A DNA stretch of 64,000 nt. Source: Plazaster borealis (taxonomy: Eukaryota > Echinodermata > Asteroidea > Forcipulatida > Labidiasteridae). The notes under the pieces are model-generated. The model saw only the letters and a program-made list of their open reading frames with translations, searched no databases and was not told where the DNA came from. Below are positions 22,597 through 61,035 of this stretch, in pieces (within the stretch, counting starts at the first letter, position 1; every line of letters begins with the position of its first letter). The position numbers and the translations under genes were made by a program. The stretch lies in contig CM037464.1 in NCBI GenBank assembly GCA_021014325.1, positions 3,379,127-3,443,126 of the forward strand, written 5' to 3'.

Positions 22597-25500
22597 TTAT
22601 TCAGATGAAGTTGATTGATTATGACTGTTGAACATTGTCAAGTAAAACTTGTATCCATCCACAGTCTTCCTGAAGATGAACAATCCACTGCAAACAGACA
22701 AAAATAATGTGAGCTTTTAAACAAGTTTATTAATTCGGCTATTTCTCCAGTCTCTGCAATTCGTCCTCAAATTACCGGATTGAGTTATGTCTTGTTCCCA
22801 AACAATGTAACATGCCTGGAGTTTTACATCTACATCTGTCTTTGGAAAGAAGCTCAAGTTGAAAAGGAGTGCTAATAAGCCCCCCCCCCCCACACACCGC
22901 TCAAACCCTTGCTCCCTATCCCCTCCAAAATGAGATTTAAAAATGTACAATGAATGATTTGATGTATTTTCCCCCACCCCAAATGAAAATGTCCGGAACG
23001 CCATTGCCGATGCTGTTATGATGAATTCATTGTTTCGTCTCGCTTCCAGACACACGGTTCGGTTGCATTGATTTGAATGAGAGAAGAACGAGACGGACGC
23101 ACCAAACACTCGTCACAGCTGCTCGTCATTCCATATTCAATTAGGGCCTCGCGCATAAATCTCGCGCATACTTCGAACTTCCGGGACCATTGAGGGCCTA
23201 ACCATATGGAGTTTTACGTACGCGGGATTTTGTTTCGTCATCTATTTTAGTTTTACGTAGTTTATGGCCATGCAAATTGTATATGATGTTGGGAATTTAA
23301 TACTAAGTGATAAACAATATGAAAGTAAAACCAATTCAACTAAATAACGAAGAAAACCAGAGAATAAGACTTGACCTCCGTTTCCGGTTACTTGTAAAAA
23401 ATTAAGAACGCTGCCCAACTGACGGGCATGTTGTCATTAAACCTAAAAGTGATAAACGCACAAACTCTGGCAAATTGCACACATTTTTATAACAACTTGC
23501 TACGGGTATTTTTATTTTCAAGAATTTTCGATATCGTGTGCGATATTTATAGGGCGACCTCAAGAGTTTACACTAGATGATGATTCAGAAAGACGGGGAT
23601 ACTTACTTGCCATCCCTAACATTTTCATCCAACTGGTTGAAAAAATCAAAGTGGAGATGAATGTACACATACTCTGCATCTTTGTCCATGGGCTGAATCT
23701 CTTTATAGGTATTTTTTACGCGAGTTACGCCCTCAAATGTGAGATGGAATAAAACTTGTTCCCCTGCCGTAATAAAAATAGAATTATAAATGACGAACAC
23801 AATAGTAAAACCAGACGATAAAGAATACTGATATTTAAGCTGGTGGCTGGTGACACCATCAGAATAAAATCAGACGCTTACACCATTGTACTGCTTTCAA
23901 CAGTGCCTTTATAATTAGCATGTATTTTTAGGGGATGAACATACACCCGTTCAAAATGTCTGAAACGTCAGATAAGAGCCTTATTAAGGGTCATGTCACA
24001 CGAGGCAATTTACAAGCAACCAGTTCCGGGCAATCTCCTCTAGAAGAGAATCCATTCACATTATTTTGAATGTTCACATGTTATTCTTGGAGATCGTAAG
24101 ACATTGTTTGAAAAATTACTGATGTGCTACCAAAGTGGTCCTGTAGCACGCACTGCAGTTGGTTGCCTCCAAGTTGCCTGTAAAAGTTGCCTCGTGTGAC
24201 AAGTACCTGAAGTAATTTAGTGTTTAGACTCAAAATAAGCAAATTCCAACCCGTCAAGCCATGGCTAAAAGACATGATTGGCTATTTGGAGTGGGAATTC
24301 TTAAAGGGGAGGTCATTGATGGCATTGGTTTACCCAAATGATCAACCCAGGGTAATTTCCTTTTTCCATGCTATTTGGCAAGGTCTCATTTGTTTAAAGG
24401 CATCGTACACGTTTGGTAATTGTCAAAGACCAGTGTTCTCGTTTGGTGTATCCCAACATATGCATAAAACAACAAGCCTGTGAAAATTTGGGCTCAATTG
24501 GTCATCGAAGTTGCAAGAAAATGATGAAAGAAAAAACACCCTTGTTGTACAAATTTGTGTGCTTTCAGATAGGAATAAAAGGCTTCTAGCTAGAAGTCTT
24601 TTATTATTTTAGTGCGAAATTACCTCTTTCTCAAAAACTACGTTACTTCAGAGGGAGTCGTTTATCACAATGTTTTATACTATCAACAGCTCTCTGTTGT
24701 TCGTTACCAAGTCAGTTTTTATGCTAATATATATTTTGAGTAATTACCAAATGTGTATGATACCTTTAAGAGAGACTGTTCAAAATAGTACCATGGCTTC
24801 ACGGAGGGTTGTAATCGATCATCCAGCAGCAGCTTCCATTCCTATCTCACGCCCGCGAGAACACATGTTTGCAAGGGGGTGCTGGTTTTTCATAGATAAT
24901 TGGCGAGCGCGAAGTGCGAGGCCATTACAGAGTGGGGTCCGGGCCCACTTAAGGGCTCCGGAAGCCTTTGGGTCCTAGATGCTCTGGCGTGCAATCAGAG
25001 CCACTATAATATGATATGTTTAAGTTTCAAAATATGACATGCTACACGTGTTTATACATTTTTGACCTTTTCCAAGCTGTCCGTTCATGTAAGGGTGAAT
25101 TTATAAAACATGTTTCCTAAGGTGCTGCAGCACACACAGCACCCCCGCTCTAGCGGGCCGCGAGATTTTTTTCCTACGAACTGTTTGTCCCCCCATACGG
25201 CGAACTGTGTACAAACTTCTTCTGATAGCGCCCTCTTTTGAATCATCCTCCCAGCCCATGCTAATTTCCCGTATGGGGACAAAAAGTTCGTAGGAAAAAA
25301 ATCTTGCTCGAAGGCCTGCATGCTCCTACTCAACCAGCATGACTTGTTCGAACCTTTTACGATAAGTCTGATAATGATGCACTTATTATAATCACCAACA
25401 GCTTGATATATTATTACTTGTTGTTATGATTTAATTTAAGACAGACAAAAAATTGTAAATACCGTTATTTCCATCAACAGGTGGAAAACCGTCTACCAGT

Positions 25501-27558
25501 ACTTTGCCATCGGGGTGAACCACGGCCATTACGGCATCCATGTCACCTTCCAAACTGGCTTCAAGAAATCTCTTAAAAACGGGCACAATCTTTTCTGTGA
25601 AATCAAAAAAATTACCATGTTTGTTAAAGACTCTGGACACCTTTGGTAATTGTCAAAGACCAGTCTTCTCACTTGGTGTATCTCAACATATGCACAAAAT
25701 AACAAACCTGTGAAAATTTGAACTCAATTGGTCATCGAAGTTGCGAGAAAATAATGGAAGAAAAAAAACACCCTTGCACACGAAGTTGTGTGCTTTCAGA
25801 TGCTTGATTTTAAGACCTCACGCGCGTGAGGTCTCGAAATTAAATATTTTACTGAGAAATTACTTTTTCTCAAAAAAGACGTTACTTCAGAGGGAGCCGT
25901 TTCTCACAATGTTTTATACTATCAACAGCTCTCAATTGATCGTTACCAAGTAAGTTTTTATGCTAACAATTATTTTGAGTAATTACCAATAGTGTCCAGT
26001 GCCTTTAACATTGTTCATCACATATACTAAAACAAAAATGTAATTGCTAAATTGATAGTTTAATAAAATAGGTAAGTAGATGCAACCATTAAAAAGTAAT
26101 CTCAATTTCAGATTTTTTTTTATTTTGGTCGATTTATTGTCTTTTAATAAATAACAAATATATTTTTAATTAGAACCCTCCGGGGACAGTTTAAATCAGA
26201 ATCCAACGGCGGCAGGACGTCTACTGTAGCTGCAGTAAGTGATTATTTTGTTTGTTTAAATTAATACAAAAATAAGCGAAGTTGACTTGTATTAGGCTTG
26301 CAACTGTTTGACAACGCTTATGTCCTTTGTACCAATGTTCAGGTCTAAGTTGGCAGACTATAACGATGATTTTTGGCGATATGGCTATTACATGAAAAAT
26401 CGTTTGTTGGCTAAAACAAATGGGAGTAGCATTAATTTCTTTTGTCTAAGTTGATCCTTTGAACTGAAGTGAAATGCAATGGAATATTAGGACTTTGGAA
26501 GGATAGCGCCAAAATCCGCCTAAAAAGACGCCCAAGGCGCTTTAAAGATATATAAAAGATGTAAATCAAGAATCCAACAAACATACCGATCAATATAAAA
26601 CAACTGAATACAGAAACAGTAGTTTTGGTGAGACAGGAGGTGTTTTTCAATTGTTAATAGTAGTATTAATAACTATAACAGACTATGGCAGACTATAAAC
26701 CTAACGATCATTTTTGGCGATATGGCTATTACATGTAAAAAATCGTTTGTTGGCTAAAACAAATGGGAGTGGCATTAATTTCTTTTGGTCTAAGTTGATC
26801 CTTTGAACTGAAGTGGAATGCAATGGAATATTAGGACTTTGGAAGGATAGCGCCAAAATCCGCCTAAAAAGACGCCCAAGGCGCTTTAAAGATATATAAA
26901 AGATGTAAATCAAGAATCAAACAAACATACCGATCAATATAAAACAACTGAATACAGAAACAGGAATTTCATGAACCCCTTAAAAACACGAAACTACTAA
27001 AAACTTAGAGGAGTCTTAAGAAGTAGTACATAAGAAGAACCGTTAACCAAACAGGTGACACTTCATGGATGCAGACAAAAAAAGAATTAATAAAAAAAAA
27101 GGAGTAATTATAAATCAAAGGAATGGGCAAAAGTTAAACGCACTAAGGACCTGGCTATTTCAAAGTACTTAATCAATACCAGAAAAACAACGACTGAACA
27201 AATTAAAATTACAAAAGGTAAGAAAGGTATTGTATTTCACAATGACTGAAAATAAAATTAATGATTCACTGTGAGAAAGATCCAGTCATGTATCCAATAC
27301 AAATGTGTCGATGTTTTGGGAAAAAAATCGAGATTGCCTGCAGAGATTTCCACTTAAAAATTACACCATAATAATTATACGTGGTCTTATTTTATGCAAA
27401 CGAGTCTACAACTAAAGCAAACCATATAGACAGAACTCATATTCACCTCGAAGATCACTTGATCGTTCCCTCTGATGTTCAGCTGCGTCTGCTACTCTTG
27501 ATTCATACAACACACCTACCAACAGAAGCAGGCGCACGAGGTTGACGAGAAACATCAT
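22597..27558 (-). CDS. Secreted NTF2-like (SnoaL/DUF4440-type) protein, copy A
   Basis: Four exons on the minus strand: 27558-27447, 25594-25463, 23763-23607 and 22687-22597 (stop TAA). Lengths are 112, 132, 157 and 91 nt with matching phases, giving 163 residues. Residues 1-26 form a signal peptide: two Met, then a hydrophobic LVRLLLLVGVLYES core ending near VADAAEH. The mature part has the DUF4440/SnoaL pattern: an acidic helix (EASLEGDMDAVMAVV), HPDGKVLVDGFPP, then strands (DAEYVYIHLHF) and a final FRKTVDGYKFYLTMF strand. The fold forms an open cone used by some enzymes and ligand-binding proteins; no activity can be read from sequence. It is the most diverged copy of the array and the one nearest ARFRP1. 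The second codon is also ATG, so either may start translation. Confidence 0.85.
23994..24200. mobile_element. TIR element (TGTCACACGAGGCAA ends)
   Basis: Left tgtcacacgaggcaattt, right aagttgcctcgtgtgac(a). Relatives of its right half lie at 36598, 48388 and 60250, close to exon 2 of B, C and E. Confidence 0.75.
24393..24769. mobile_element. TTAAAGGCATCGTACACG-type MITE
   Basis: ttaaaggcatcgtacacgtt to gatacctttaa, in the copy A region (intron 2). Confidence 0.85.
24880..25005 (+). repeat. Dispersed repeat (GCGAGCGCGAAGTGCGAGG)
   Basis: gcgagcgcgaagtgcgagg followed by ggggtccgggcccacttaag. I recall this as a widespread repeat of marine invertebrates; its type is unknown to me. Confidence 0.45.
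25161..25300. mobile_element. TIR element (GAGATTTTTTTCCTACGAAC ends)
   Basis: Left end gagatttttttcctacgaac and its inverse on the right. The core is shared with the insertion at 15820-15966. Confidence 0.75.
25624..26008. mobile_element. TTAAAG...CCTTTAA MITE, copy A intron 1
   Basis: Same family as 20648-21033, with caatagtgtccagtgcctttaa-type right end. Starts about 30 bp from copy A exon 2. Confidence 0.85.
26350..26965 (+). repeat. Direct repeat of about 275 bp, two copies 344 bp apart
   Basis: ggcgatatggctattacatg through gatcaatataaaacaactga occurs at about 26373-26610 and 26717-26950, in intron 1 of copy A. Confidence 0.9.
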
Positions 27559-28341: not shown

Positions 28342-28715
28342 TTTAAAGATATCGTACACGTTTGGTAATGACTCAAAACAAATATTAGCAAAAAAAACAT
28401 ACTTGGCAACAAGCAACGGAGAGCTGTTGATAGTATAAAACATTGTAGGAAACGACCCCCTCTGAAGTAACGTAGTTTTTGAGAAAGAGGTAATTTCTCA
28501 CTAAAATAATAAAAACTTCTTGCAAGAAGTTCTTATTCCTATCTGAAAGCACACAAATGTACAACAAGGGTGTTTTTTCTTTCATCATTTTCTTGCAACT
28601 TCGATGACCAATTGAGCCCAAATTTTCACAGGCTTGTTACTTGATGCATATGTTGGGATACACCAAGTGAGAACACTGGTCTTTGACAATTTCCAAACGT
28701 GTTCAGTGCCTTTAA
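28342..28715. mobile_element. CGTACACGTTTGG-type MITE
   Basis: tttaaagatatcgtacacgt to gtgttcagtgcctttaa, with an inner hairpin acttcttgcaagaagt. Confidence 0.85.
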
Positions 28716-29513
28716 TGACAGAAAAGAAGAAAAAAGAAGAAAAAGAAACTAGTTAACCTATTGAACCCCTTGCACAACGCGCAGCGCACTTACACGTGCC
28801 TATCTTGTCCCCCATTGTGGAGTCAAAATGTACATAAAGGAATTGACTCCCAAAATTGCAGAATTAATGGTAGACGCGCATTTTGTGAAGGTGCGTTCCG
28901 TCAAAAATTTGACTCCACAAAATGGCCGACCGTGTTTGTTCACGATGTAAAAGAAAAACCACGCAATTTCGAGACATATTTGTGTGGATCATTGTATTCT
29001 ACTTTTAAAACATCTTTCTAACCATATGCATTTTATAACGGTTACAAATGCTTTCAATAGACCAACTCGCCCGATCCAAGGCAACGTGTCCCTTTAATTT
29101 CCGCTTCGCATACAAACTGGAGCAAGCTGCTACACTTTAGATAGTACGGTACCAAAACCGTGAGAAACAAGGACGTCAGTGGTGTCCCGGCGACTCCATG
29201 CAACGTCACGCAAGATCCATGCGACACAAATACAAGTACGTGCGTATCAAAGCACTTACATTATCCCGATGTAAAATAATTACCTAACTTCAGTTTGTTA
29301 GGGCAGTCGACACGGTTTGCGTAACACTGTCGGTGTAAATTTGCAGTTTAACACGCTTCGTGCTGGATGTTGGAGGTCGAGCACTATTTCTTATTTTTCT
29401 CATAAGTTTCCAGGTTGTATTATTATTAAATTTATTAAATTCCACCAATATGGTTTTGGGGTTGAAAAAAAAAATGATGTGACAGAAATAACAATCACAA
29501 ATTTACACCTGCG

Positions 29514-29890
29514 TTAAAGGTATCGCACACGTTTGGTAAGACTCAAAACAAATATTAGCATAAAAACTTACTTCTTTTGGTAACAAGCAACGGAGAGCTG
29601 TTGATAGTATAAAACATTGTAGGAAACGACTCCCTCTGAAGTAACGCAGCTTTTGAGAAAGAGGTATTTTCTCACTTAAATAATAAAAACTTCTTGCAAG
29701 AAGTTTTTATTCCTATTTGAAAGCACACAAGTGGACAACAAGGGTGTTTTTTCTTTCATCATTTTCGTGCAACTTCGATGACCAATTGAGCCCAAATTTT
29801 CACAGGCTTGTTATTTTATGCATAATGTTGGGATGCACCAAGTGAGAACTCTGGTCTTTGACAATTTCCAAACGTGTTCAGTGCCTTTAA
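29514..29890. mobile_element. CGTACACGTTTGG-type MITE
   Basis: ttaaaggtatcgcacacgtt to gtgttcagtgcctttaa; the same inner hairpin. Confidence 0.85.
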
Positions 29891-29955
29891 TCTCCCATGC
29901 CAAGAGGTGCCCTGAAGCTGAATGGTGACCTTATCGTCGCGAGACTTACACGGTC

Positions 29956-30217: not shown

Positions 30218-30242
30218 AAACAGTGTGAAGGGCCGTTCTGCA

Positions 30243-33230: not shown

Positions 33231-33476
33231 GAAGAAGTTAAATAACAATTTTAAAACTGTCAGATGGTTCGATATTTGATGTCATGTCAACTAAAAGTCA
33301 CTGTAGTCAAATGATTTCATATTAAATTGTACCCCACAAATCCACATTTTCTCAAAGAATACAACAATTATATGTAACTTCTCATTAAAATTCCTAATTC
33401 CACATAATCATTGAGGATAAAATCCGGAACCGGTGACCTTGTTGGAACTTAGGTATTATATGTTGGAGTTAACCAT

Positions 33477-36400
33477 CAAAAAGGAAACCTTGTAGCCGTC
33501 GTCAGTATTACGCCAGACCATCAGACACCTGTATAGAGTATAAAAACAAAACCAATCAAAATATGTTTCATCCAATAAGATCTAAAAGCAGACCTGTTAA
33601 AGGTGTTTTGGCCCCACCCACCCACTGAACAACCTCACGCCACTTTCTATCTAATGTGAACGGCAGATTTAAGCCCCGTTTGGGTAAAAGTCTTTACTTG
33701 ATCCGTCCGATCAGAGTTTGGTTAAGATAATTTTGTAATGATGTCGAAGAGATAATGAAGGCTAAAGTCAACGAAGAGTGTGTTTAAAGGCCCTGCACAC
33801 TATTGGTAAGATCGAAAAACACAAATGTTCACAAATTCACACATGACTTACATGATTTAAAGTAAGTAATGGTTTAATGGGTTCCTTACAATATTTAAAG
33901 TAAGTAATGGTTTAATGGGTTCCTTACAATATTTCTGCCTAAAATGCTATCGTTTCTGAGAAATGAGTAAAACAATAGTTTTTATCACGCGCGATATTTT
34001 GAAACCCCCCCCGAAGGTCTCTTTTCGCTATTTTCTCGTGATCTCGATGACCAATTGAGCTCAAACTTTCACAGGTTTGTTTGTTCATGCATATGTTGAA
34101 TCGCACAAAATGTGGACACTGATTTTGAGCTGTTACCAAAAGTGTACAAAACCTTTAAGAACGACCTGGTAAGTTTTTGTGACGTTTTCTATGACGTTAG
34201 TTCAAAAGTTATTTGTTCAATTCAACAATTTTAACTATGACGTTAGTTCAAAAGTTATTTGTTCAATTCAACTTTGTTAACTAATGCTTTATAACCAGCC
34301 CACCAGAGTGTATAAGGAAGTGTAAACTTACTTCACGTCACCAAACAGGTCGTGCTCCTGATGGTACCATTTCTCTCTAAATAAGACGTAAACGTAGTCA
34401 GCTCCTTCCTCGTTTGGTCCTATCTCGATGTACTCTGTATCCATGCTCTTGAATTTAGCGCTCACCTCTGCCTCAATTTTACGAATAGCTATACCGGAAT
34501 GACAACATATAATAATAATAATAATAGTGCAGTTCTTATATAGCGCTTTATACTCCCGATGGGTGTCTCAAAGCGCTCAGTATTTTTCCTATACAAGGTA
34601 TAAGTGGAGTTACGTGTTGAAGTATGAGACCTATTCCTTTACAAAGCACCATGTAATGGTTTACAAGATGCTGTGGCGCAATATGCAGCCAATCAGCCAG
34701 ATAGTGATACAAAATAATGATGACAATAGTTATAAATGTAATAACATTCTAACGATAGTAATGAAAAACAATGAGACTAATTACCAACAAATTCTTTTTT
34801 TTTTGCGTCGATAAAGAGCTAAAACAAAAACACGTTGAACGTTTTAGATTATCTACTGCTGACCGAAAAAGCAGATGTCCGCTTTTATGCCACTTAATTG
34901 TGTGACAAAACGCCCAATCTGCTTTGCAGGTAGCAGAAATGTAGAAGAAGAACAAATCATCTAAAACGACCAACCTGCTTTTCTGCTTCTTGGAAACCAA
35001 AAGAGGAAAATGTCAAATTATCGACTGTAAGTGTATAGGTGAATAACTGAAATCTGGTTGTTTTGAAACTAAAAAGCAAAACAGTAGAAAAACGGCTGAT
35101 ACGAAAATGTTCAATCTACGTCTAACAAAATGCAGAAAATATAAAAAAATGCACCAGAAAACAACGTTCAAACTGGTACTTTTTTCATTTAATAAGAAAG
35201 CTGACAAAACAGATTTTCAACTGTACACTCTGTGGACACTCTAAAAACTCCGGTCAGAATTGATCCGGATTCCGGGTCCCAGTGGGCCTGAACCTTTTAT
35301 GGGTCAGGCTGACCAGAAAGTGGTTAAAACCATAACTGGAATTTTAACTCGGATTCTGCGTCAGTTTGACCCATATTAAGTGGGTCATTTTGACACTTAT
35401 TCCGGGTCATACTGACCCAGAAACTTTCGACCTCTATAACCAGCCCCCCAAAATAGACATCTTATTATTCGCTTTGTGTTGTGAAAAGTAATAACAGATC
35501 GAATTTGAAGGGGCTGTGTCATCATGATCAAAGCAGGCCTGTGGCTGTACATGGAATTAGGAACTCTAACCTAGTTACTGCACGCGCGCCCTTTGCGCGC
35601 CGTAACTGGGTAAGAGTTCATATTATTTCCATGTCAAATTTAAAAACTTCCGCAAGCGTCGAATTTCTGTGCTAGCTGTGTAAAGCGAAGAATGCCTAGT
35701 CACGTGGAGTGCGCACGCGCACAAGCAACAATTCCCTGCCAACACTGCAAAACAATGGGTGTTAACAGTTACACCATGGGTGTTAAAATGACACTAATTT
35801 CTGCCAAAACAACTACATTGGTGTTTTTGTAACACCCTAAGGTGTTACACAACATATGATGTTAATTTTGATTCTCTCTTCGGTATCTATAATGTGACAA
35901 CACCCATACGCATGACGAAAGCGCGAAGTAATTCCCTGCTTCCGTGAGGGCCGATTATTTTTACGGTGAACATGAAATTAGTCCTATGCTTTGATCATAA
36001 CGACACACAGCCCTTAATTGTTATATTTACAAGCTTCAAGAAGTCATTACCTTCCTTTCCATGAGCTAGAGGGATTCCTTCAACTGAAAGATAACCGTCT
36101 GGAAGCCACATATCCATCACTGTATCAATGTCATGGCTAGCGAAAGCTTCACATCTCTTGTCCGTCAGTGCTTTTATTTTGTCTGAGGAACAGCAACAAG
36201 AAAACATTATAAAGTATCTTAAAGGTATCGTACACGTTTGGTAATGACTCAAAACAAATATTAGCATAAAAACGTACTTGGTAACAAGCAACGGAGAGCT
36301 GTTGATAGTATAAAACATTGTAGGAAATGACTCCCTCTGAAGTAACGTAGTTTTTGAGAAAGAGGTAATTTCTCACTAAAATAATAAACACTTCTTGCAA

Positions 36401-37992: not shown

Positions 37993-38080
37993 AACTGCGT
38001 GCATTTATCGGCCAATATTTTAGACAAGATTGATTGATTTCGTTTAACCGTCTGTGCCAAGTGCTGCGTTCAAATGAGAC

Positions 38081-38087
38081 TTTTATA
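38081..38087 (-). promoter_or_regulatory. TATA box, NTF2-like copy B
   Basis: TATAAAA in the context cgcgTATAAAAgtctc, about 90 bp before the ATG. The same box and surroundings occur in C, D and E. Confidence 0.65.
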
Positions 38088-38417
38088 CGCGAAACAACTT
38101 ATAGTCACAGTGTGGTTATTAACAATCGGCGAACCACGTGATATTGAAGAGCAATAATCATTTGACACGTCCATTATTTAGGAAAAGTTTTTGTTGGTAG
38201 ATCGATGCCCGTAACACAATTATCGCAAGGAATTGTTTTGTATTTACTATGGGGGCTTAACAGAATTAGTGTTCAGAAATGTTCGAAATCCAGGTATTTG
38301 GCAGAGCTTACCCTGGTGCATGTAGATACAAAAAAGAGAGTTAGAGCTTATTTATTATAATCTTTTGTTAATTGTTGGCTTGTGTCGTGGAATTCAAGAA
38401 TAGGGTCTTGCGTGGAG

Positions 38418-38817
38418 CCGGTAAAGGGACAAGGTTTTTGTCATTATTTCGGTCCCTCGAAATAATATTTCATTCCCCCGAAAAATGTCTCATTCCCCGA
38501 AATATCATTTCGTCCCCTCGAAACAATATCTCGCTCCCTGGTAATAATATTTCATCCCAACGAAGTAGCCTGTAATCCTTTCCCTGTCAATATTATACCA
38601 TCCCCTCGAAATAGTAATTTAATATTTCGAGTGAACAAAATATTATTTCGGGGGAATGAAACATTTTTCGAGGGAATGAAATATTATTTCGAATGAACGA
38701 AATATTATTTCGGGGGAATGAAATCTTATTATTGAACGAAATAAAATGTCGAGGGGGGGGGGGTGGGCGAAAGAAAGAAAGAAGGTTTTTGTTTGTCCCT
38801 TTACGGGTTCCGTATTT
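38418..38817. mobile_element. TIR element filled with TCGAAATAATATTTC repeats, copy 1
   Basis: Ends ccggtaaagggacaa and ttgtccctttacggg. The inside is a run of about 20-bp units (tcgaaataatatttcattcc) in one direction, then in the inverse direction. The many short frames with repeated ISFPRNN come from this array and are not genes. Confidence 0.85.
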
Positions 38818-39301
38818 GCAGACTTCAACAAGTGAATATAAAGCAAAACTGAAAGTTTCGAAACCATTCACTGTTTTGCCCCCAGGTCTGGATGTGTGAT
38901 AGTTATAGGTTGATTGATAGATTTTAGAACAACCAAGATGTCAAATTCTTAAAAGGTTCTGGTAATATTAGAATGTGGTCATTGATAGACTTATGTAAGA
39001 ACCACTCTAAAGTCTCAGCGGTTATGTATTACAGGAGCAGACAACTCCATATATTGCATCCTCGTTTTGACTGTCGACCTATTGTATTTTGTACAATACT
39101 ATGCGTTTATAGGCGGACATTTGGGGCAACAAAGACAAAATAGGAAATACAAAACCCGACGATGAGGCGCTTCTCTCGTGCAAATGAAGTCAAATTCAAA
39201 GGGGGCACATCTCAAAACTTGTTCAGCTGTTATTTTTTTCAACGCTTTAATTCATGTTGGAATTACGACAAAATTTAATGGAAAAATTTTCCGTACGACC
39301 T

Positions 39302-49540: not shown

Positions 49541-49929
49541 CCGGTAAAGGGACAAGGTTTTTGTCATTATTTCGGTCCCTCGAAATAATATTTCATTCCC
49601 CCGAAAAATGTCTCATTCCCCGAAATATCATTTCGTCCCCTCGAAACAATATCTCGCTCCCTGGTAATAATATTTCATCCCAACGAAGTAGCCTGTAATC
49701 CTTTCCCTGTCAATATTATACCATCCCCTCGAAATAGTAATTTAATATTTCGAGTGAACAAAATATTATTTCGGGGGAATGAAACATTTTTAGGGGGAAT
49801 GAAATATTATTTCGAAGGAACGAAATATTATTTCGGGGGAATGAAATCTTATTATTGAACGAAATAAAATGTCGAGGAGGGGGGGGGGGCGAAAGAAAGA
49901 AAGAAGGTTTTTGAGTGTCCCTTTACGGG
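49541..49929. mobile_element. TIR element with TCGAAATAATATTTC repeats, copy 2
   Basis: As at 38418, upstream of copy C. Confidence 0.85.
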
Positions 49930-50255: not shown

Positions 50256-50550
50256 AAATCAAATTCTGATGGTTAAGTCATCGGGGTGTGGGTTCGAATC
50301 CCGGTCATGACACTTGTATCTTTGAGCAAGATACTTCACTATAATTGCTTCTCTTCACCCAGGGGGTACCTGCGAGGGTAGGGGTTGATATTGTGTTTGA
50401 AAAGCCTTCGGAGCGCCACGGCGGCTCGGGGCTGTATACTCCCCAGGGAGCTGAGAAAGATTAACGGAATGTTATTGGCCCAATGACCAGGGCACTAATG
50501 TTAAGCACATTGATACGGAATTCTGAAATGCGCTATATAAGAACTAGTTA
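50256..50550 (+). mobile_element. SINE, 5'-truncated at the duplication junction
   Basis: Same SINE as 36695-37020, starting at aaatcaaattctgatgg in the middle of the tRNA-like head. The cut is the junction of the large duplication. Confidence 0.88.
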
Positions 50551-50915
50551 TTATTAACTCACTATCCTCGGGAAAATAATGAGAAAACTGAAATGTGAAT
50601 TAATGTTCTCATTGGAGATTGCCTGGAGCTGGTTTTCGTGTGACATAGCCTTTAGTCATTGATTTAAGGCAAAACAAGAAGGAACAAAGAGAAAAAACAG
50701 GGAAACAAAACCCCAAAACAAAAATAAACAAACACCGCAACACCCCATTACCCCAACGAACAAACAAACAAACTTTGGTGTTGAAGGTCCCGACAACACA
50801 ACATTTGGTATCGTAATGAATCAGGTTATTTAACAAATTAATTATGAAAAAAAGCAAAGCCAGTGTTGTTTGAAGCTTTGCATGGTGTGGACAAATAAGA
50901 AGTAACTATATAAAT

Positions 50916-51103
50916 AAATAGTAAACTTGCGGGTACAACCATTGTGTAAAATCTCTTTTGTGGGAGTGTTGGCTCTTAAAAGAGCCGGTGTGGTCTCGAC
51001 GTTTCGACCAGTATACTCTGCTCTTCTCCTGAAGACGAGCAGAGCCAACACTCCCACAAAAGAGATTTTACACATGGTTGTACCCGCAAGTTTACTATTT
51101 ATT
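50916..51103. mobile_element. Foldback element, second copy
   Basis: Twin of 37393-37580 in the large duplication, downstream of exon D. Confidence 0.85.
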
Positions 51104-51413
51104 TAGAGTTACTTCTTAAAATCAAAGCCGTTTAGTACTTTTCTGTTAATTAAACAACATTGATAAAGTAAACCAGATTTTGTTTTCCTTGTATAAAAAA
51201 ATAAAATAAAAATGGGTTGTATTCTAAGATTATTATTAAGTATGCCTAACTGTATTTTCAATTATCAGTTATTGATGATGGATTCTCCCGTCGCCTCGAC
51301 GGATGAGTGTTCAGCAAAGAGGTGAGACGATCACCGCCTAGGTTGATGCCGTCTCAAGTGAGTTATTAACACCTCTCGATTTGATAAGAATGATGTAAGT
51401 TATAACTATTTAC

Positions 51414-51516
51414 CTTCAAAGCTTTGTTCTTCCCTGTCATGTTCGGCTGCAATCACACTTAGTGCAATCAATGAGCCAAGGAACAGAAGTACACATACGA
51501 GTTGGATACGAGACAT
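51414..51516 (-). pseudogene. Orphan signal-peptide exon D of the NTF2-like family
   Basis: This 103-nt exon is nearly identical to exon 1 of B, C and E: start ATG, then a signal peptide reading GSLIALSVIAAEHDREEQSF (Leu where the others have Pro), then a GTAAAT donor. It keeps the TATA box at 51605-51611. No exon 2 follows before the next exon 1 (copy C), because the duplicated block begins inside the SINE of intron 1. Either it is dead, or it serves as an alternative first exon for copy C, since the phase-1 donor matches C exon 2. Confidence 0.75.
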
Positions 51517-51604
51517 AACTGCGTGCATTTATCGGCCAATATTTTAGACAAGATGGATTGATTTCGTTTAACCGTCTGTGCCAAGTGCTGTGTTCAAATG
51601 AGAC

Positions 51605-51611
51605 TTTTATA
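51605..51611 (-). promoter_or_regulatory. TATA box, orphan exon D
   Basis: Intact cgcgTATAAAAgtctc context, so exon D may still be transcribed. Confidence 0.6.
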
Positions 51612-51942
51612 CGCGAAACAACTTATAGTCACAGTGTGGTTATTAACAATCGGCGAACCACGTGATATTGAAGAGCAATAATCATTTGACACGTCCATTA
51701 TTTAGGAAAAGTTTTTGTTGGTAGATCGATGCCCGTAACACAATTATCGCAAGGAATTGTTTTGTATTTACTATGGGGGCTTAACAGAATTAGTGTTCAG
51801 AAATGTTCGAAATCCAGGTATTTGGCAGAGCTTACTCTGGTGCATGTAGATACAAAAAAAGAGAGTTAGAGCTTATTTATTATAATCTTTTGTTAATTGT
51901 TGGCTTGTGTCGTGGAATTCAAGAATAGGGTCTTGCGTGGAG

Positions 51943-52330
51943 CCGGTAAAGGGACAAGGTTTTTGTCATTATTTCGGTCCCTCGAAATAATATTTCATTC
52001 CCCCGAAAAATGTCTCATTCCCCGAAATATCATTTCGTCCCCTCGAAACAATATCTCGCTCCCTGGTAATAATATTTCATCCCAACGAAGTAGCCTGTAA
52101 TCCTTTCCCTGTCAATATTATACCATCCCCTCGAAATAGTAATTTAATATTTCGAGTGAACAAAATATTATTTCGGGGGAATGAAACATTTTTAGGGGGA
52201 ATGAAATATTATTTCGAAGGAACGAAATATTATTTCGGGGGAATGAAATCTTATTATTGAACGAAATAAAATGTCGAGGAGGGGGGGGGGCGAAAGAAAG
52301 AAAGAAGGTTTTTGAGTGTCCCTTTACGGG
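51943..52330. mobile_element. TIR element with TCGAAATAATATTTC repeats, copy 3
   Basis: As at 38418, upstream of exon D. Confidence 0.85.
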
Positions 52331-54814
52331 TTCCGTATTTGCAGACTTCAACAAGTGAATATAAAGCAAAACTGAAAGTTTCGAAACACTTCACTGTTTT
52401 GCCCCCAGGTCTGGATGTGTGATAGTTATAGGTTGATTGATATATTTTAAAACAACCAAGATGTCAAATTCTTAAAAGGTTCTGGTAATATTAGAATGTG
52501 GTCATTGATAGACTTATGTAAGAACCACTCTAAAGTCTCAGCGGTTATGTATTACAGGAGCAGACAACTCCATATACTGCATCCTCGTTTTGACTGTCGA
52601 CCTGTTGTATTTTGTACAATACTATGCGTTTATAGGCGGACATTTGGGGCAACAAAGACAAAATAGGAAATACAAAACCCGACGATGAGGCGCTTCTCTC
52701 GTGCAAATGAAGTCAAATTCAAAGGGGGCACATCTCAAAACTTGTTCAGCTGTTATTTTTTATAACGCTTTAATTCATGTTGGAATTACGACAAAATTTA
52801 ATGGAAAAATTTTCCGTACGACCTGGGCCCAATTTCTACTATAGAGCTGCTCAACCCTGCGCGTGACACCATCAACAAAATCACACTCGGACAGCATCGG
52901 TCACTTTATTTGATATTAGAATGTAATACATTTTTATGAAGAACAAAATATTTTGAAAAGGCCAAAGCCATTAGATATGGACCCTACTGAATTCATCCAA
53001 ATAAACAACCAGGTCACTGCTTACAGCCATTGTACAAGTATACAGAGGAAGCCATCTGGAAACCATATGGTTCATTTCACCCAGTAGTGGCTATTGACCC
53101 CAAGGTCAAGTAACTGCTGTACAATTCCTATGGGAATTCCGGGAGAGCTGGTCATTGATGGATTTTGTGTGTGTGAAAAAAACCCCGATGGTAACAAGAC
53201 AATTGGTATGCTATTTGGCTAGGTGTAGCTGGGGAAATTTGAAATTTTTAGACTTTTAAAATAAAAAATGGTGGAGTACCGACTGTTTAATTAAAAACGG
53301 ACACCCAATAAGTGACCGATGGCATCATGCACAAAAGTAGCTAACTGCAACAAATCTTTGCTTAACAGAAAAGGTTATACCAGCCAAACTACCATGTCAC
53401 GTGTACAATTTTTGAGTGGTATCCTGCTAATTTTTGCTTAGCAGAAAACTGTTAAGCAATATTTTTTGCTTAAGCAGCTCAACGAAATGGGGCACCGTGT
53501 AGTGCCGGTATCTTGCCTCCCTGAAAGCCCTTGAATGTACAAGGCCCCTGTTTTTGTAAACAAAGGTTACATGGTCTATAGAAAGTACAGTAATTAAAAT
53601 TGATGAGATTTTTTTACTCATCATCGTTCATCGCTATCATTAAAATGTGATGGACTAAGTGCTCGAGCGAACTTAAGCTAAAAATCCCCAATAAACTGAT
53701 TATAATTATAGTGATCTCAATATTTTTAATCTTTTGAGCTGCGCACAATAGACGATGTGACCTGTGACATCACATGTTTACAAAAGAGCCACAGAGCCTG
53801 GACTTCCTGCAGGCACGATTTGTACACAGACTAATGGAATAAAACATAAAATCTTATATTTTATGGAGATTGCACTGTCTAATTCCTATCAACTTTTGAT
53901 ATGATGAAAGGGGGCACATCTCAAAACTTGTCCAGCTTTTACTTCTATAATTCTTGGATTTATGTGGAAATTATGACACAAAATGTCAACTTTCCCATAG
54001 GACCTGTGTAGTATCTTGCCTGCCAGAATACCCTAAGAATGCACAAGGTCACACTTATTGTAAACAAAGTTCACATGGTCTATATTGGAACTCATTACTT
54101 GAGGTAGGAACAAACTTTTACGAAAGGAAGAAGATGAAGAAGACCCGAACCAGTCGTAATGTTTTTGTAATGTTTTACTTTCTAGTTTCGAGAAAAGCAG
54201 ATTTTAGGTATTCACCTTCACTTACGGTCGAAAAGTGAACATTTGCCTCTTTTGTTTCCAAGAAGCAGGTTGATCCGTTAGATAAATAAATTGTTCAATT
54301 TTGTTGTTGGCCGCGAAGTAGATGGGACGTTTTGTCACGCAAAGTGGCACAAAAGCAGACATCTGCTTTCTTCCCTCAAAACGTCCATCTGTATTGCAGC
54401 CAGCAGAAACGAACAAAAAAATATGAACCTAAAATGTTCAACCTGCTTTTGTTTTAGCTCTTCATCGACGACAAAGTATAAACAGGTTTATTTTTAATGA
54501 CAGTTTTTCATTGTTCACATTTTTTAGTAATATAATATAGCATTTTTTCTTGAAGTTGGAGGAACAAAGTAAGAAACTGGTGCACTTTGAAAAATATTTT
54601 CAACAGTTTTTTGATTTATCCCTTTTTGTTAGCAAAACAATTTGCCACATTTTGTACCAAACTATTATTGCATCATAATATCAAAAGAAAAATACACTCA
54701 CCTTTTTATTTACAATGACACTTCATTATTGGGAAAGCTGACAAAAATACAATTTTTCTACATATTTGAGGTTCGGGTGATTATAACTTATGTAAAGGGA
54801 TACATTTTTTCCTC

Positions 54815-54960
54815 AAACCCAACCGAAAAGAGGAGGGGATAGAATTTGTTATCCCTTGTTCCCCAAACTTAGCCGAAATGAGGAGGGGATAGAATTGTCT
54901 ATCCCTTGTTCCTCAAACCTAGCCGAACCAAGCGAAAAAAGAGGAGGGGATAGATTTTTT
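54815..54960 (+). repeat. 50-bp minisatellite, copy 2
   Basis: As at 41205. Confidence 0.85.
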
Positions 54961-55328
54961 CCCTTGGACCTCAAATATGAACAAATGTGCGTTATATTGC
55001 TAACAAATAACTGGAACTTATCCATTTTTAAATGTTAGCCTAGAAAAATGAGATTGGTTTGAAAAATCTGGAGCATGTTTTTCAAAATTTGGAGGAAAAT
55101 AAGCTAAAGGAAAAATCTGATGCTTCAAAATCCTGCTTCGATTGCAATTGTCGGACTATAATGACATGACAATCTTAAGCTGTACATTTGAAAATTAATA
55201 AACGCAGTTTAATATGAACCTGTTTATAACTTTTCAGAAGAAACATTAGGTTTTTTCATTGCTCTCGTTAGTATTTTTATTACTCACTCTTATTATCATT
55301 CTTTGTATATTTGTTGTCATCCCGGTAG

Positions 55329-55456
55329 CTATTCGTAAAGTTGCTGAATTGGTAGGCAATCCACTCCACGACATGACGTCAGAGTACATCGAGGTGGGAC
55401 CAAAAGAGGAAGGGGCTGTCTACGTTTACGTCCTATTCACCGAACAATGGCACGAT
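55329..55456 (+). pseudogene. Inverted, truncated exon-3 relic of an NTF2-like gene (second copy)
   Basis: This is the twin of the relic at 41718, carried by the large duplication. It keeps AIRKVAELVGNPLHDMTSEY, the five extra codons missing from the other copy, and is thus nearer the exon-3 form of copy C. It breaks off at the same cacgat point, without a donor. The unit of copy E probably has the same relic, but the window ends just before it. Confidence 0.8.
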
Positions 55457-57519
55457 TTCCTACATGTATTGTGATGTTTATTTCACCCATTGAATAAGGT
55501 TTGAAAAAAGAGCTAAACTCAGAAATTGTAATTGTTAAAAGTTTCGCAAATCTTGGAAAAACATTTTTTCTTAAAGCTGACCTTTATTTCCGCTTCACGT
55601 TTGACCATAAAGATCCTGCAAGAAAAACGCAAAGCACTTATATATCCCGATTTAAAATTTTTCCTAACTTCGGATTTGTAAGGGCAGTAGACACGGTTTG
55701 CGTACCACAGTCGGCGTAAAATTGCAGTTTTGACACTTAACCTCTCATTTAAATTTGATGACAATCAGTATTGTACACAAGGTACAAAAGTTTTTGTTGT
55801 CCTGGCAACATCTTTATGCTAGACATAAAAACAAATTTTTCAACTGAGCACAACTTTATTTTAACACTCACTAAGAAAATATACAACCGAATGTTCCTCA
55901 TTTTCCGTCACGTCGCGAAGGGGTATAGTTTTGGATCTGACCCATAGGCCTAAGAGCCTTTAGACCCAAATAAAACAAAATTCCAACCCATCGAGCCATT
56001 TTGGAGCCATTTGGAAGACATGATTATTTCAGCCGGGAGTGGCTATTGGCCCTTTGCTAAGAGATTTGCTGTACAGTTCCTATGATAATTCATAGAGGGG
56101 TGGTCATTGGTGGAATTTTTAAGTCAAAGAATCAACCCAGGGTAATTGAAATTTCTGCAAATGCCATTTGGCTTTATTATGGCTCAATAGGAACTTGGAA
56201 TTTTGAGTTTTGGGGTGACTGAATGTTTTTGGCGTAGTAAACAACAGACAAACAAACTGCAGACAGCAGTCTCGTGGCACCATCGCTTGCTAGAGAATAT
56301 GACGTAATAACTGATCCCGAACTAATGAGCTTTACTGTAGTTCATAACAGTCTGAGAAATCGTATTACACCCGGGGTGTGAAGCTTTTCTCATATCATTA
56401 ACAAGCCTAATACCCCTCAGAGGGGCTAGAGAGGTTTATCCCCAATAAAAAGTGGAATATGCTTTCTCTTTCCCCTCTCTGTCTGTTATAAATGATTGTT
56501 TGTTTGTTAGCCTTCTAGATCACAAACATATGACCCAAAATACACAGACCATGGCTCCCCTGTATTGCCCAGGCTATTTGTGATGTCTGCAAGCTACCCT
56601 AGCTAAGGTTGATTGATGTCTGTATATCAAGGCCACAATCCCAGCTGCGGTAAACTGACATTCTTTTTTTTCCCTTTTTTTTGGGGGGGGGGAGGGTTGC
56701 TATCCTGTACACGATTCCATATTTCTGTGCATTTAGTAATGGGACGTGTGCTAAACCAATGGATAATGCCTGAACTGCTGAATTTGTAATGAGGTTTACA
56801 AGGTGACCCTAACCCCCTGTGACAATGAGCTTCTGCAGTGTGTTTATTGAAGGTGTGATAGGGGTTACCCCAAAGACTGAATTTTGTTAACAGTCACAGA
56901 CTGTACCCAGCTCTTTTGCCGGAGAGTTCTTTAATGTTTATCCTGACGTCATACGTTACGGCCCAAAACAAGGCTATCGGTGTTAAATTTCCCGTATGTC
57001 GGCGAAACCAACAAACAAGTTGTAGTCCTACAGGTTGGTGCTCTATGTAATAAATACTTGCAAGGAAACCGATACGTCACTCATCAGTCGAAATCAATTT
57101 TAATTTAGCCAACACTTTGTTTATCTACATGTACAATAATACCTCTTTTTAGACCACAAGAGGGCGCTTATTGAAATTAGACTTTGATGACCGGGGTTAG
57201 GTCTACGGACATGTCCGTGAAACAGAACTAAACTTATGGTTGGATTCATTTAGGCTCAGAATAGTATAAATATCTATACAATTATATTCTAATTTTTTTT
57301 AAATGATGTAGCCATGTTGGGATCTTCTATCTGAAGCCTGAATTACTGAGAATAAATTGTGTTTGCCATTGCACTCATGGAACAAGGTGAAAATAATGTG
57401 CAGTAAAATCATTAAAGAAACTCTATGACGCAGATCATTCCAGCTTTTAAAAACTTTATTCATATGTTGTGTATGGTTGCACAACTGTGCACTACATGCC
57501 CTCACCATAAGCTATCATA

Positions 57520-57924
57520 CGGAGTTCTCGGAGTGCCATCCAACTTGTTGAGATTCTGAAATAATTTACTAGATACCCCGAAATAAATTTTGAAAGTAGA
57601 TTGTCGTCTTACAGATATATTTTATCTCGGGGTGACGACATCCTGAAAGTTTAGGGTGTTGTCTTCCTAAGATATTTAACTTGTCTCGATATTTTCAGAA
57701 ATGTTATCATCCCATGATGAACTATCTGGACAAGTCGACATCCTACTTTCAGGATGTCGACATCATAAGATAAAATATACCGGGAAGAAAGCATCTTGTT
57801 GTAGGATGTCATCATCCCGAGAAAAATCATCTCAGGATGTCGTCACCTTACATTTATGCTGTCATCATCGTGCAGTAAATTATCTGAGGATCTCGAGATG
57901 TTGGATGGCACTTCCAGAGCTCCG
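57520..57924. mobile_element. TIR element of nested palindromes, copy 3
   Basis: Nearly identical to 43898-44302; part of the large duplication. Confidence 0.8.
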
Positions 57925-58180
57925 TACATATTGCAAGTTGGCAAAGTTTATTTATCACTCAAATCTGCAGTGAATCATGGTATTGAACGGTCGGACAGTA
58001 AAAGTTAAAGTTTATAATCTATTTCATTATTTGAATTGGAATGTTTTGTTTGTTGCCAATCATATGGTTTTTGTGTTTGTTTGAACAAGATGTGTTTGGC
58101 CAAAGGTAACAAGTCTGGTACGGTGGCATCATAACATGCCACAACCATTTGAATTGTCAAGGGTCAATCTTCATTAAAGA
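57925..58180 (+). pseudogene. ARFRP1 3' fragment beside NTF2-like copy E
   Basis: Almost the same as the relic at 44303-44560: ggtattgaacggtcggacag, gttgccaatcata, ttgtttgaacaagatgtg and the aacaagtctggtacggtggc segment. It sits between the palindromic element at 57520-57924 and the 3' end of copy E, as expected for a repeated unit. Confidence 0.72.
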
Positions 58181-58409
58181 AGAAGTTGAATAACAATTTT
58201 AAAATTGTTGGTATCAGATGGTTGGATATATGCCATGTCAACTAAAAGTCACTGTTGTCAAATGGCTTCATTTTAAATTCTACCCCACAAATCCACATTT
58301 TCTCAAAGAATACAACAATTACCAATGATGTAATTTCACATTCAAGTTCATATAAGTCCACATAATCATTGTGGGGAAATTCCGGAACCGGTGAATTTGT
58401 TGGAACTTA

Positions 58410-61035
58410 TTACTCGTTGGAGTTTACCATCAAAAAGGAAACCTTGTATCCGTCGTCAGTATTACGCCAGACCAACAGACACCTGTATAATATAAAAACA
58501 AAACCTATCAAAATATGTTTCACCCAATAAGATCTAGAAGCAGACCTGTCAAATGTGTTTTGGCCCCACCCACCCTCCCACTGATCAATCCAGTGCCACT
58601 CTCTGTCATGTCTTTAGTGAATGGCAGGTTTGAGCCCCATTTGGGTAAAAGTCTATACTTTAAATCCAATCACAGTTTGGTTACTCGGACTATTTTGTAA
58701 TGATGACGAAGAATCAGGCCGTATTAAAGGCATCGTACACGTTTGGTAATGACTCAAAACAAATATTAGCATAAAAACTGACTTGGTAACAAGCAACAGA
58801 GAGCTGTTGATAGTTTTTTAACATTGTAGGAAACGACTCCCTCTGAAGTAACGTAGTTTTTGAGAAAGAGGTAATTTCTCACTAAAATAATAAAAACTTC
58901 TTGCAAGAAGTTTTTATTCCTATCTGAAAGCACACAAATTTGTACAACAAGGGTTTTTTGTTCACCATTCTCTTGCAACTTCGATGACCAATTAAGCCCA
59001 AATTTTCACAGGCTTGTTATGTTATGCATATGTTGGGATACACCAAGTGAGAACACTGGTCTTTGACAGTTTCCAAACGTGTTCAATGCCTTTAAAGACA
59101 AAGAACAAAATGATAGTTATGCACCCAGCTTGCACCAGTCCAACCAACCAAAACCCACCCAAACCCATCAGAGAGTCGTTAAGGAAGTGTAAACTTACTT
59201 CACGTCACGAAACAGTTTGCCTTGCTGATCGTGCCATCTTTCGGTGAATAAGACGTACACGTAGTCGGCCCCTTCCTCCTTTGGTCCCACCTCGATGTAC
59301 TCTGTCGTCATGTCGTGGAGTCCATTGTCTGACAGTTCATAAACTTTATGAATAGCTACCGGGATGACAACAAATATACAAAGAATGACAATAAAAGTAG
59401 TAATACAAATAATAAGCAATGAAAAACCTAGTGTTCCTTCTAAAAATTTATACTTTGTCGTCGATGAAGAGCTAAAACAAAAGCAGGTTGAACGTTTTAT
59501 ATTAATATCGTTTTGTTTTTTCCTGCTGGCTGCAATACAGATGGACGTTTTGAGGGGAAAAAACCCAGATGTCTGCTTTTGTGCCACTTTAGTGTGTGAC
59601 AAAACGTCAAATCTGCTTCGCGGCCAACAGAAAAGTAAGACATTTTATTTATCTAACGGATGAACCTGCTTTCCGCTTCTTGGAAACAAAAGAGGCAAAT
59701 GTTAGACCGTAAGTGAAGGTGATTGCCTAAAATCTGCTTTTCGCGAAACTAGAAAGTAAAACAGTAGTATTCGCGCGTATTCGAACATTTTTGGGACCAC
59801 TTTGGTCCCACGTGCATGCATTCAATTAACTTGTGAAGGATTCGAATACGCACGAGAGTTGCACAGTCTATTCCATGTGCAGCCACAGACATGGGCCTAA
59901 TTTCATGGCACTGCTTACCAAATATTTCGGCGCTTACGCGCATTGTAACGTGTGTATTTCTATAGGACGCAGCTGGGCGTAAGTGCAGAATTCCGCGGTA
60001 AGCAGAGCCATGAAATTGGGCCCCGCTTTGAGTATGACGACACAGCCCTTACAAGCTTCAAGAAGTCATTACCTTCCTTTCCATGAGCTAGAGGGATTCC
60101 TTCAACTGAAAGATAACCGTCTGGATGCCACATATCCATCACTGTATCAATGTCATGGCTAGCGAAAGCTTCACATCTTTTGTCCGTCAGTGCTTTCATT
60201 TTGTCTGAGGAAAAGCAAAAAGAAAACATTATAAAGTCTCTTCTTAAGGCCATGTCAAACAGGACAATTATTTTCAGGCAACTTGGAGGCAACCGACTGC
60301 ACTGCATGCCCTTCGGCAGCACAAGAGCACTCTTCTAAAGTTGTAACTCACTATCTACAGGAAAACAATGAACAAAATGAAATGAATTAAATGTTCTTAT
60401 AAGCAGAGCCATGAAATTGGGCCCAGCTGGAGCTGTTTATAACCGGCTGGGCTTCTCGTTTTGGACGCGCAAGCTCCGCCAATTTACTTACGCGGAACGC
60501 AATACATGGCTATTAGTTCCCGCGCGTAGCCTAACCCTTTTGTACACGCGCGTACACACAAACCAACGCGCACAAAACAGAATTTTACAAAAGTTTTTGA
60601 AAATGTATACAAACTTCGAAAATTCGCTTAACAAACAGAAGATTGTCTTTTTACCACCGATTTTCCTTATTCTTTCACATTTTAACAAAAAGGCATTTAT
60701 GAATGGGAATAAATGAGTAGTGACTCGTTCTTAAACGGCCGTTTAAAACCATGCAGAGTCGCGGCCGTGCGATAAAGGCCCTCGCCTTCGGCTCGGGCCT
60801 TTATGGCACGGCCACGACCCTGCCGGTTTTAAACGGCCGTTTAAGAACTCGTCGCCACTCTTTTATTCCCTTAATTATTAATACCTTTACATTTGATAAG
60901 ACTGAACATCTTGAAGTGTTATAAATATTTACCTTCAAAGCTTTGTTCTTCCCTGTCATGCTCGGCTGCAATCACACTTGGTGCAATCAATGAGCCAAGG
61001 AACAGAAGTACACATACGAGTTGGATACCAGACAT
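58410..61035 (-). CDS. Secreted NTF2-like protein, copy E
   Basis: Exons on the minus strand: 61035-60933, 60204-60073, 59355-59199 and 58482-58410. Lengths are 103, 132, 157 and 73 nt, giving 154 residues. The signal peptide is MSGIQLVCVLLFLGSLIAPS, with Gly for Arg at residue 3. Exon 2 resembles B (CEAFASHDIDTVMDMWHPDG). Exon 3 starts AIHKVYELSDNGLHDMTTEY and ends RDVK; exon 4 ends VSFLMVNSNE. This is the most compact copy, with introns of 728, 717 and 716 bp. Its core is intact, so it is the best reference for the array. The final stop is followed at once by a second TAA, as in C. Confidence 0.88.
58723..59095. mobile_element. CGTACACGTTTGG-type MITE, copy E intron 3
   Basis: ttaaaggcatcgtacacgtt to gttcaatgcctttaa; the inner hairpin acttcttgcaagaagt is kept. 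Confidence 0.85.
59765..59875. mobile_element. ATAGACTGTGCAAGTC-type element in copy E intron 2
   Basis: ttcgcgcgtattcgaacatt and gagttgcacagtcta; contains gggaccactttggtccca. Confidence 0.65.
59893..60022. mobile_element. GGGCC(C/T)AATTTCATGG-type MITE in copy E intron 2
   Basis: gggcctaatttcatggcact to agccatgaaattgggcccc. It interrupts the foldback MITE whose ends are at gccacagac and gctttgagtatgacgacaca. Confidence 0.8.
60705..60870. repeat. Long hairpin in copy E intron 1, with extra inner stem
   Basis: Same hairpin as 48833-48955 plus about 43 bp in the middle that is itself palindromic (aaaggccctcgccttcggct, gggcctttat). Confidence 0.85.

Follow-up and report, generated by a model that had tools for sequence, protein, structure and literature searches.

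A tandem sea star family of probably secreted NTF2-like proteins with apparent exchange of exon 2 between its genes

The 64-kb window, that is, the whole stretch of DNA analysed, holds four four-exon genes (B, C, D and E) and one orphan exon 1, all on the minus strand, in a repeat array that continues outside it. Our tentative but leading reading is that these genes form a multigene family of secreted, non-catalytic small-molecule binders, multiplied by tandem duplication and with exon 2 exchanged between two copies. The original prediction of a tandem family of secreted NTF2-like proteins in an animal was supported as a whole and was largely right. New here are the apparent exchange of exon 2, the better conservation of the leader than of exons 2 and 3, the pattern of amino acid change in those two exons, the TATA boxes and the continuation of the array past the window.

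The genes reach from the end of the stop codon of the lowest, B (22597), to an ATG of the highest, E (61035). All four, and the orphan exon 1 (51414–51516, with a GT donor and a TATA box), lie exactly where they had been predicted. The internal exon lengths and phases claimed to be common to the genes were likewise found in 4/4: exon 2 is 132 nt long, phase 1 on entry and exit, and exon 3 is 157 nt long, passing from phase 1 to phase 2. All introns are GT-AG, and the joined coding sequences (492 nt in B; 465 nt in each of C, D and E) are in frame with a single final stop, encoding 154–163 amino acids. The spliced model of B comprises exon 1 with the leader (27447–27558), exon 2 (25463–25594; profile i-E 4.8e-17), exon 3 (23607–23763; 2.3e-17) and exon 4 (22597–22687, 91 nt including the stop; 2.4e-8). 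The donor of its exon 1 was placed at 27447 rather than 27459 because the resulting SDLREKI junction is present in A. rubens P0006. In C, the leader exon (37890–37992, with a possible upstream ATG at 38004) is followed by exons 2 (36051–36182), 3 (34332–34488) and 4 (33456–33528); in D, the corresponding exons lie at 49012–49114, 48212–48343, 45822–45978 and 44784–44856. In E they lie at 60933–61035, 60073–60204, 59199–59355 and 58410–58482, and a possible upstream ATG at 61047 is the start used by A. rubens P0001. Exons 3 and 4 of C, D and E are also supported by the family profile. A TATA box stands at every first exon of the array, and the orphan could serve as an alternative first exon of D.

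The family profile was run on stop-to-stop pieces of at least 14 amino acids in six frames of the whole window, with E values up to 1. It gave 20 matches: four each of exons 2, 3 and 4, five of exon 1, two inverted exon 3 fragments and one stray. The stray match had an i-E of 0.17, and the other 19 ranged from 1.8e-19 to 2.4e-8. The inverted fragments, on the plus strand, lie at 41729–41833 (i-E 1.9e-11), where the likeness ends short of the end of exon 3 and its donor, and at 55328–55459 (i-E 2.3e-14), its counterpart in the second copy of a duplicated segment. Since the window proteins are themselves in the profile, the scan shows the completeness of the set and not the independence of the models. 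Asterias rubens and A. amurensis have proteins that are 58–71% identical to E, and their alignments cross the proposed junctions. We take as independent support, at the level of protein alignment, the gap-free match of Asterias P0001, P0002 and P0004 to C, D and E across exons 2 to 4.

The uncharacterised A. rubens loci LOC117293232, LOC117304501, LOC117296369 and LOC117296739, for which no mention was found in the literature, and their A. amurensis homologues share with the window proteins a leader, the domain and a similar length. In a tree with 4/12 inner branches well supported, B groups with LOC117304501 (support 86/84) and C–E fall inside the LOC117293232 clade. The Asterias members found occupy at least three contigs, differing in length, in each of the two species, whereas here both subfamilies lie within 40 kb. 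The search for relatives needs shared five-residue words and once missed its own query members P0006 and P0007, so the relatives it returned do not establish absence outside Asterias. A recent bacterial gene transfer was rejected, no bacterial name appearing among the 12 proteins returned (P0003 and P0009 are nameless).

That each product has a single small NTF2-like domain is borne out by Pfam for two of the four and by the AlphaFold models of one Asterias relative from each subfamily, in which helices pack on the curved sheet of an NTF2-like cone. The curated DUF4440 (PF14534) cut-off of 25.2 bits divides the four proteins, with E (31.0) and C (25.4) above it and D (22.1) and B (17.4) beneath it. 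Up to an E value of 1, the only SnoaL-type profiles among the Pfam matches were SnoaL_2, SnoaL_3 and SnoaL_4, and the SnoaL polyketide cyclase profile itself was absent. With the DUF4440, SnoaL_2 and SnoaL_3 families of the NTF2-like superfamily the window proteins have a sequence profile and fold in common, but they are animal, leader-bearing, four-exon and tandem, with two of four below curated cut-offs. In NCBIfam, 8/12 members match the SgcJ/EcaC family TIGR02246 (best E 1.5e-4), with nothing clear, and the sequence search of the PDB was weak (best E 0.12 for one protein and 0.0017 for the profile). The fold matches include designed steroid binders, ketosteroid-isomerase-like proteins and CaMKII hubs; the presence of designed steroid binders among the nearest structures reflects a shared scaffold and is not evidence of the ligand.

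The array contains an 8.4-kb repeat. Its first copy (36726–45042) spans C exon 1, D exon 4 and the intergenic DNA between the two genes, and is 96.5% identical to the second (50256–58682), which runs from the orphan exon 1 to E exon 4. By the spacing of this unit, a further exon 4 would be expected some 3.2 kb past the last base of the window (near 67.2 kb), with one more gene behind it. Between D and E, exon 2 differs at 25/132 sites and adjoins a 98%-identical intron 1; the adjoining aligned non-exon sites (600 upstream and 50 downstream, indels not counted) differ at 10/650 (Fisher p = 2.7e-13). Between C and E the relation is reversed, with 3/132 differences in exon 2 (129/132 identical) and 11/87 in the aligned flank (p = 0.003). 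Exon 2 of E has a C-type sequence beside a D-type intron 1, and sites within it pair C with E 23 times, D with E once and C with D twice. Read from these site patterns, exon 2 was exchanged between C and E as an exon-sized unit by a short conversion tract. Positive selection as the sole cause of this island was ruled out because silent D–E sites in exon 2 are raised too in comparison with the intron (4/27, p = 0.0015). The edges of the tract are poorly fixed. The 30 nt upstream of exon 2 hold only three informative sites, two pairing D with E and one C with E, and beyond them C carries a repeat; downstream, the first aligned bases are identical in C, D and E, and D–E likeness drops to 68/86 across 100 nt.

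Exon 2 had been predicted to vary most between copies, a claim that did not hold, exon 3 being just as variable. Amino acid identity in exon 2 is 29/44 for C–D, 42/44 for C–E and 29/44 for D–E; in exon 3 it is 27/52, 29/52 and 39/52, respectively. Across exons 2 and 3, dN/dS with kappa 1 was 1.95 for C–D (p 0.051), 1.08 for C–E (p 0.54) and 1.39 for D–E (p 0.22), in pairs that are not independent of one another; with kappa 2, the p values for a ratio above 1 were 0.013, 0.35 and 0.10. Amino acid changes in these exons thus equal or outnumber silent ones, mostly without significance, and relaxed constraint is possible. In eight C-type proteins, helices and the loop after helix 3 carry 3.25 residues per site and strands 2.25 (p = 0.001), a grouping picked after looking at the data.

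All 15 members have a hydrophobic N-terminal leader, as a putative signal peptide of probably secreted proteins would have; in B, C, D and E its last residues, by inspection, are V-I-A or A-D-A. Mean pairwise identity among C-type proteins (25 pairs, window–window pairs left out) is 0.80 in the leader, 0.57 in exon 2, 0.55 in exon 3 and 0.73 in exon 4; among B-type proteins (21 pairs) it is 0.79, 0.42, 0.42 and 0.47. By these identities the leader is better conserved than exons 2 and 3 in both subfamilies. Its conservation may be due in part to homogenisation of exon 1, which is 96–99% identical between copies. A constant export tag joined to a changing working part would resemble a pattern known also from some animal defence proteins.

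Under the reading we favour, a sea star close to Asterias would have a multigene family whose products are small, soluble and secreted. The conserved leader would export each protein, and the remainder would form a single NTF2-like cone; its cavity most likely binds, but does not convert, a small molecule that is probably lipophilic. New copies would arise in tandem through duplications that break within introns, which would let exon 1 and its promoter, the two middle exons and exon 4 travel as separate blocks. In addition, a short conversion tract would have carried exon 2 from one to the other of C and E. The outcome would be proteins alike in promoter, leader and scaffold and unlike in helices and rim loops, perhaps with different ligands or partners, a divergence that may be adaptive. 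A bolder extension, which we consider doubtful, is a private repertoire of secreted NTF2-like binders in Asterias-group sea stars, in which conversion shuffles single pocket-helix exons among tandem genes. Each individual would then carry a changing set of binders, doing on this fold what lipocalins or odorant-binding proteins do on theirs; the ligands might be, for instance, steroid saponins, lipids of microbes or pheromones.

The cone could instead be the active site of a secreted enzyme of isomerase, hydratase or cyclase type, acting for example on sea-star steroids, with substrates differing by paralogue. The closest solved folds include ketosteroid-isomerase-like proteins, and an acidic residue at 69 together with Y143, K144 and N151 (E numbering) is kept in 15/15 members; the acidic and Tyr-Lys positions could be catalytic. 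However, the column of the isomerase active-site tyrosine, which we take to be Tyr14 in helix 1, reads I, I, M, L, L, F, L, F, F, F, V, F, R, L and R (Tyr in 0/15), as located by profile alignment to 6uad, and membership of the ketosteroid isomerases was rejected for this reason. The bacterial ketosteroid-isomerase-like proteins 3d9r and 3hx8 show 15–18% identity. In the same alignment the kept acidic residue lies one place off the isomerase acid, which is weak evidence, and extracellular members tend towards non-enzymatic roles (PMC3924330). We regard an enzyme as unlikely.

Slightly less likely is a defence effector striking microbes, prey or predators and diversified in an arms race, as are secreted defence peptides or sea-urchin SpTrf. 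The tandem array, exon mosaic and steady leader with a changing mature part would suit it, as would the purifying selection on the leader with diversification elsewhere described for frog defence peptides in part of one report (PMC3731216) and the SpTrf segmental duplications with repeats in exon 2 (PMC8634487, in part). Against it, the proteins have 0–3 cysteines and no shared cysteine pair, the Pfam scans gave no known defence domain, and positive selection is mostly non-significant. A structural or adhesive oligomer of mucus, matrix or tube-foot adhesive, in which the fold would be a multimerising hub as it is in the association domain of CaMKII, we judge improbable. CaMKII hubs among the fold matches would fit it; as weak evidence against it, a paper on the A. 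rubens footprint (PMC9382459) does not use the words SnoaL, NTF2 or DUF4440 in its main text. We give least credence to relaxed birth-and-death duplicates lacking a strong function, with the mosaic as ordinary conversion in a repeat-rich array. A dN/dS near 1, the orphan exon 1, the two inverted exon 3 scraps and the many repeats in the window agree with it, but frames and splice sites are intact in all four genes, invariant residues and the TATA box are retained, and relatives persist in two named species.

The NTF2-like fold is a much-used scaffold for designed small-molecule binders, several of which are among the fold matches. If the favoured reading is true, a family of natural counterparts in an animal, secreted, duplicating and swapping pocket exons, would show how evolution tunes the NTF2-like cavity, and the array would offer a ready set of paralogues for testing. 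Literature searches for starfish with SnoaL, or with secreted nuclear transport factor 2, found nothing; those joining SnoaL, signal peptide and metazoan gave fungal works only, judged by title. No title among the matches listed in the wider literature names this family, and SnoaL and NTF2 were not found in the main text of an A. rubens coelomocyte proteome paper (PMC13409769).

The family would then join, as a candidate, those gene families of echinoderms in which duplication and conversion create diversity. The sea-urchin SpTrf immune family likewise consists of tightly clustered, similar small genes, as part of one account describes (PMC5491942), and shows segmental duplication and a mosaic exon 2, according to part of another (PMC8634487). 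Segmental duplication and apparent conversion among copies were both found here, in the 8.4-kb repeat and the exon 2 tract. In contrast to the four-exon sea-star genes, SpTrf genes have two exons with internal repeats (PMC5491942, in part). The likeness, drawn from descriptions of the genes, is one of genome behaviour and not of descent.

Four genes, each with four exons and named B, C, D and E in order of rising coordinate, lie at 22597–61047 on the minus strand of the window, together with an orphan exon 1 (51414–51516). Internal exons were sought as open stretches 132 or 157 nt long, bordered by AG and GT, and were found among the matches listed; first and last exons were sought afterwards. 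The two internal lengths recur with equal phases in all four genes, and the joined exons of B, C, D and E encode 163, 154, 154 and 154 amino acids, with no internal stops. The exon 1 donor of B is ambiguous, position 27447 being favoured by the A. rubens orthologue. A family profile run against the six-frame window recovered the exons of the four genes, the orphan exon 1 and, on the plus strand, two inverted pieces of exon 3. The coordinates and gene count of the original prediction are correct. When further family exons were sought over the whole window in six frames at E values up to 1, a single other match appeared (E = 0.17).

All four products had been predicted to contain a single NTF2-like domain. 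In Pfam, E reached both DUF4440 (31.0 bits) and SnoaL_2 (28.5 bits) and C barely reached DUF4440 and SnoaL_3, whereas D and B fell below the cut-offs; at this level the assignment held for E and C only. Across A6, a protein alignment of 12 family members, DUF4440 was matched in 8 and SnoaL_2 in 7 at E values up to 0.1. AlphaFold models, each built with 8 sequences, of the related database proteins P0001 (A. rubens; pLDDT 84.9) and P0007 (pLDDT 82.0) follow the order helix–helix–strand–helix and then four strands, as in the NTF2-like fold. The models represent the window proteins by homology only. A hydrophobic leader precedes the fold. Each protein has 0 to 3 cysteines, and no cysteine pair common to the family proteins was found.

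A search with E against 5.8 billion proteins returned five: P0001 (71% to E), three A. amurensis proteins (58–64%) and one further protein of 153 aa (63%). Independent support for the gene models comes from the database relatives P0001, P0002 and P0004, with which the C-type proteins C, D and E align gap-free from exon 2 to exon 4; P0005 is one residue short in exon 3. Members of the B type were gained through profile searches, and those bearing species names are all from Asterias. These matches make a sea star closely related to A. rubens and A. amurensis the probable source of the window. In Asterias, members are spread over at least three contigs per species (21.7, 12.3 and 18.1 Mb in A. 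rubens; 15.2, 17.1 and 20.4 Mb in A. amurensis), whereas in the window both subfamilies lie within 40 kb.

Two segments are 96.5% identical: one reaches from C exon 1 to D exon 4 (36726–45042), the other from the orphan exon 1 as far as E exon 4 (50256–58682). Since the repeated segment runs from one exon 1 to the neighbour's exon 4, a single duplicated block carries the 5' part of one gene together with the 3' part of its neighbour. The repeat finder also showed 63709–64000 to be identical to 41324–41615 and 54935–55226. The end of the window therefore cuts through a third copy, and another gene is expected beyond it.

Exon 2 departs from this pattern. In exon 1, D and E share 97% identity, and in intron 1 about 98%, but they differ at 25/132 sites in exon 2 against 10/650 adjoining aligned sites (600 upstream, 50 downstream); farther downstream they diverge too (68/86 over the first 100 nt). 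C and E differ at only 3/132 sites in exon 2, against 11/87 in their aligned flanks (p = 0.003). Variable sites inside exon 2 pair C with E 23 times, C with D twice and D with E once. The simplest account of these alignments is a short conversion tract over exon 2 between C and E, in which either gene may have been the donor. The limits of this tract are poorly defined: only three informative sites lie within 30 nt upstream of exon 2 (two group D with E and one groups C with E), past which a repeat is inserted in C, and on the downstream side the closest aligned bases are identical in C, D and E.

For exons 2 and 3 together, the nonsynonymous/synonymous rate ratio was 1.95 for C–D, 1.08 for C–E and 1.39 for D–E. 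Only C–D nears significance (p = 0.051; 0.013 with a transition bias of 2), in tests that assume an independence which conversion tracts violate. Conservation of the leader above exons 2–3 is a stronger pattern than these rates. Mean identity in the two subfamilies was 0.80 and 0.79 for the leader, 0.57 and 0.42 for exon 2, and 0.55 and 0.42 for exon 3, exon 4 being intermediate (0.73 and 0.47). Within the domain, under a grouping chosen after inspection, strands vary less than the helices and the loop that follows helix 3.

All four C-type exon 1 copies, the orphan included, are preceded by TATAAAAG and CACGTG, which lie 95 and 148 bp upstream of the ATG, respectively (102 and 154 bp in E). 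In B, TATATAA lies 114 bp upstream of the ATG, and CACGTG was absent upstream of exon 1. Paired 21-bp tandem arrays lie upstream of each C-type copy (38445–38730, 49568–49853, 51970–52255 and 61503–61789); the consensus units of a pair are near reverse complements of one another.

Elsewhere in the window, a minus-strand exon-like ORF at 8660–8815 matches a KHDC4/BBP-type KH domain (E = 1.7e-11). Two others on that strand, at 7592–7747 and 6651–7097 (Pro/Gly-rich), have no Pfam match; by eye they resemble what is presumably the remainder of a KHDRBS/Sam68-type RNA-binding gene. A tandem array of 224-bp units (3.3 copies, 93% matches) occupies 19415–20150. A dispersed repeat of ~380 bp occurs at 20647–21033, 24393–24771, 25624–26011, 28343–28733, 29514–29891, 36213–36597 and 58724–59110, in both orientations and with copies 74–96% identical; one copy starts roughly 30 bp upstream of exon 2 of C and another lies within intron 3 of E. 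E intron 1 contains a ~200-bp imperfect palindrome (60689–60888, 81% self-complementary). ARAGORN found no tRNA, despite a marginal Rfam match on the plus strand at 18325–18393 (30 bits, cut-off 29).

The best solved fold matches include ketosteroid-isomerase-like proteins, CaMKII hubs and NTF2 itself, together with proteins designed to bind vitamin D3, digoxigenin, cortisol and apixaban. The family proteins could be enzymes, defence effectors or structural hubs, and the window genes could also be relaxed duplicates. The combination of a fold with a cavity, a leader and promoter that stay constant and helices that change fits diversifying, putatively secreted binding proteins. For such binding proteins, steroids as ligand are a guess, drawn from the fold neighbours and from the saponin chemistry of sea stars.

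Both the NTF2-like fold and this way of expanding a gene family have precedents; no instance of the two together in an animal, with exons exchanged singly, appeared among the open-licence papers listed. Frog defence peptides pair a conserved leader with a changing product, as the window family does (PMC3731216). The array likewise resembles, in its kind of segmental duplication, the SpTrf genes of sea urchins (PMC8634487).
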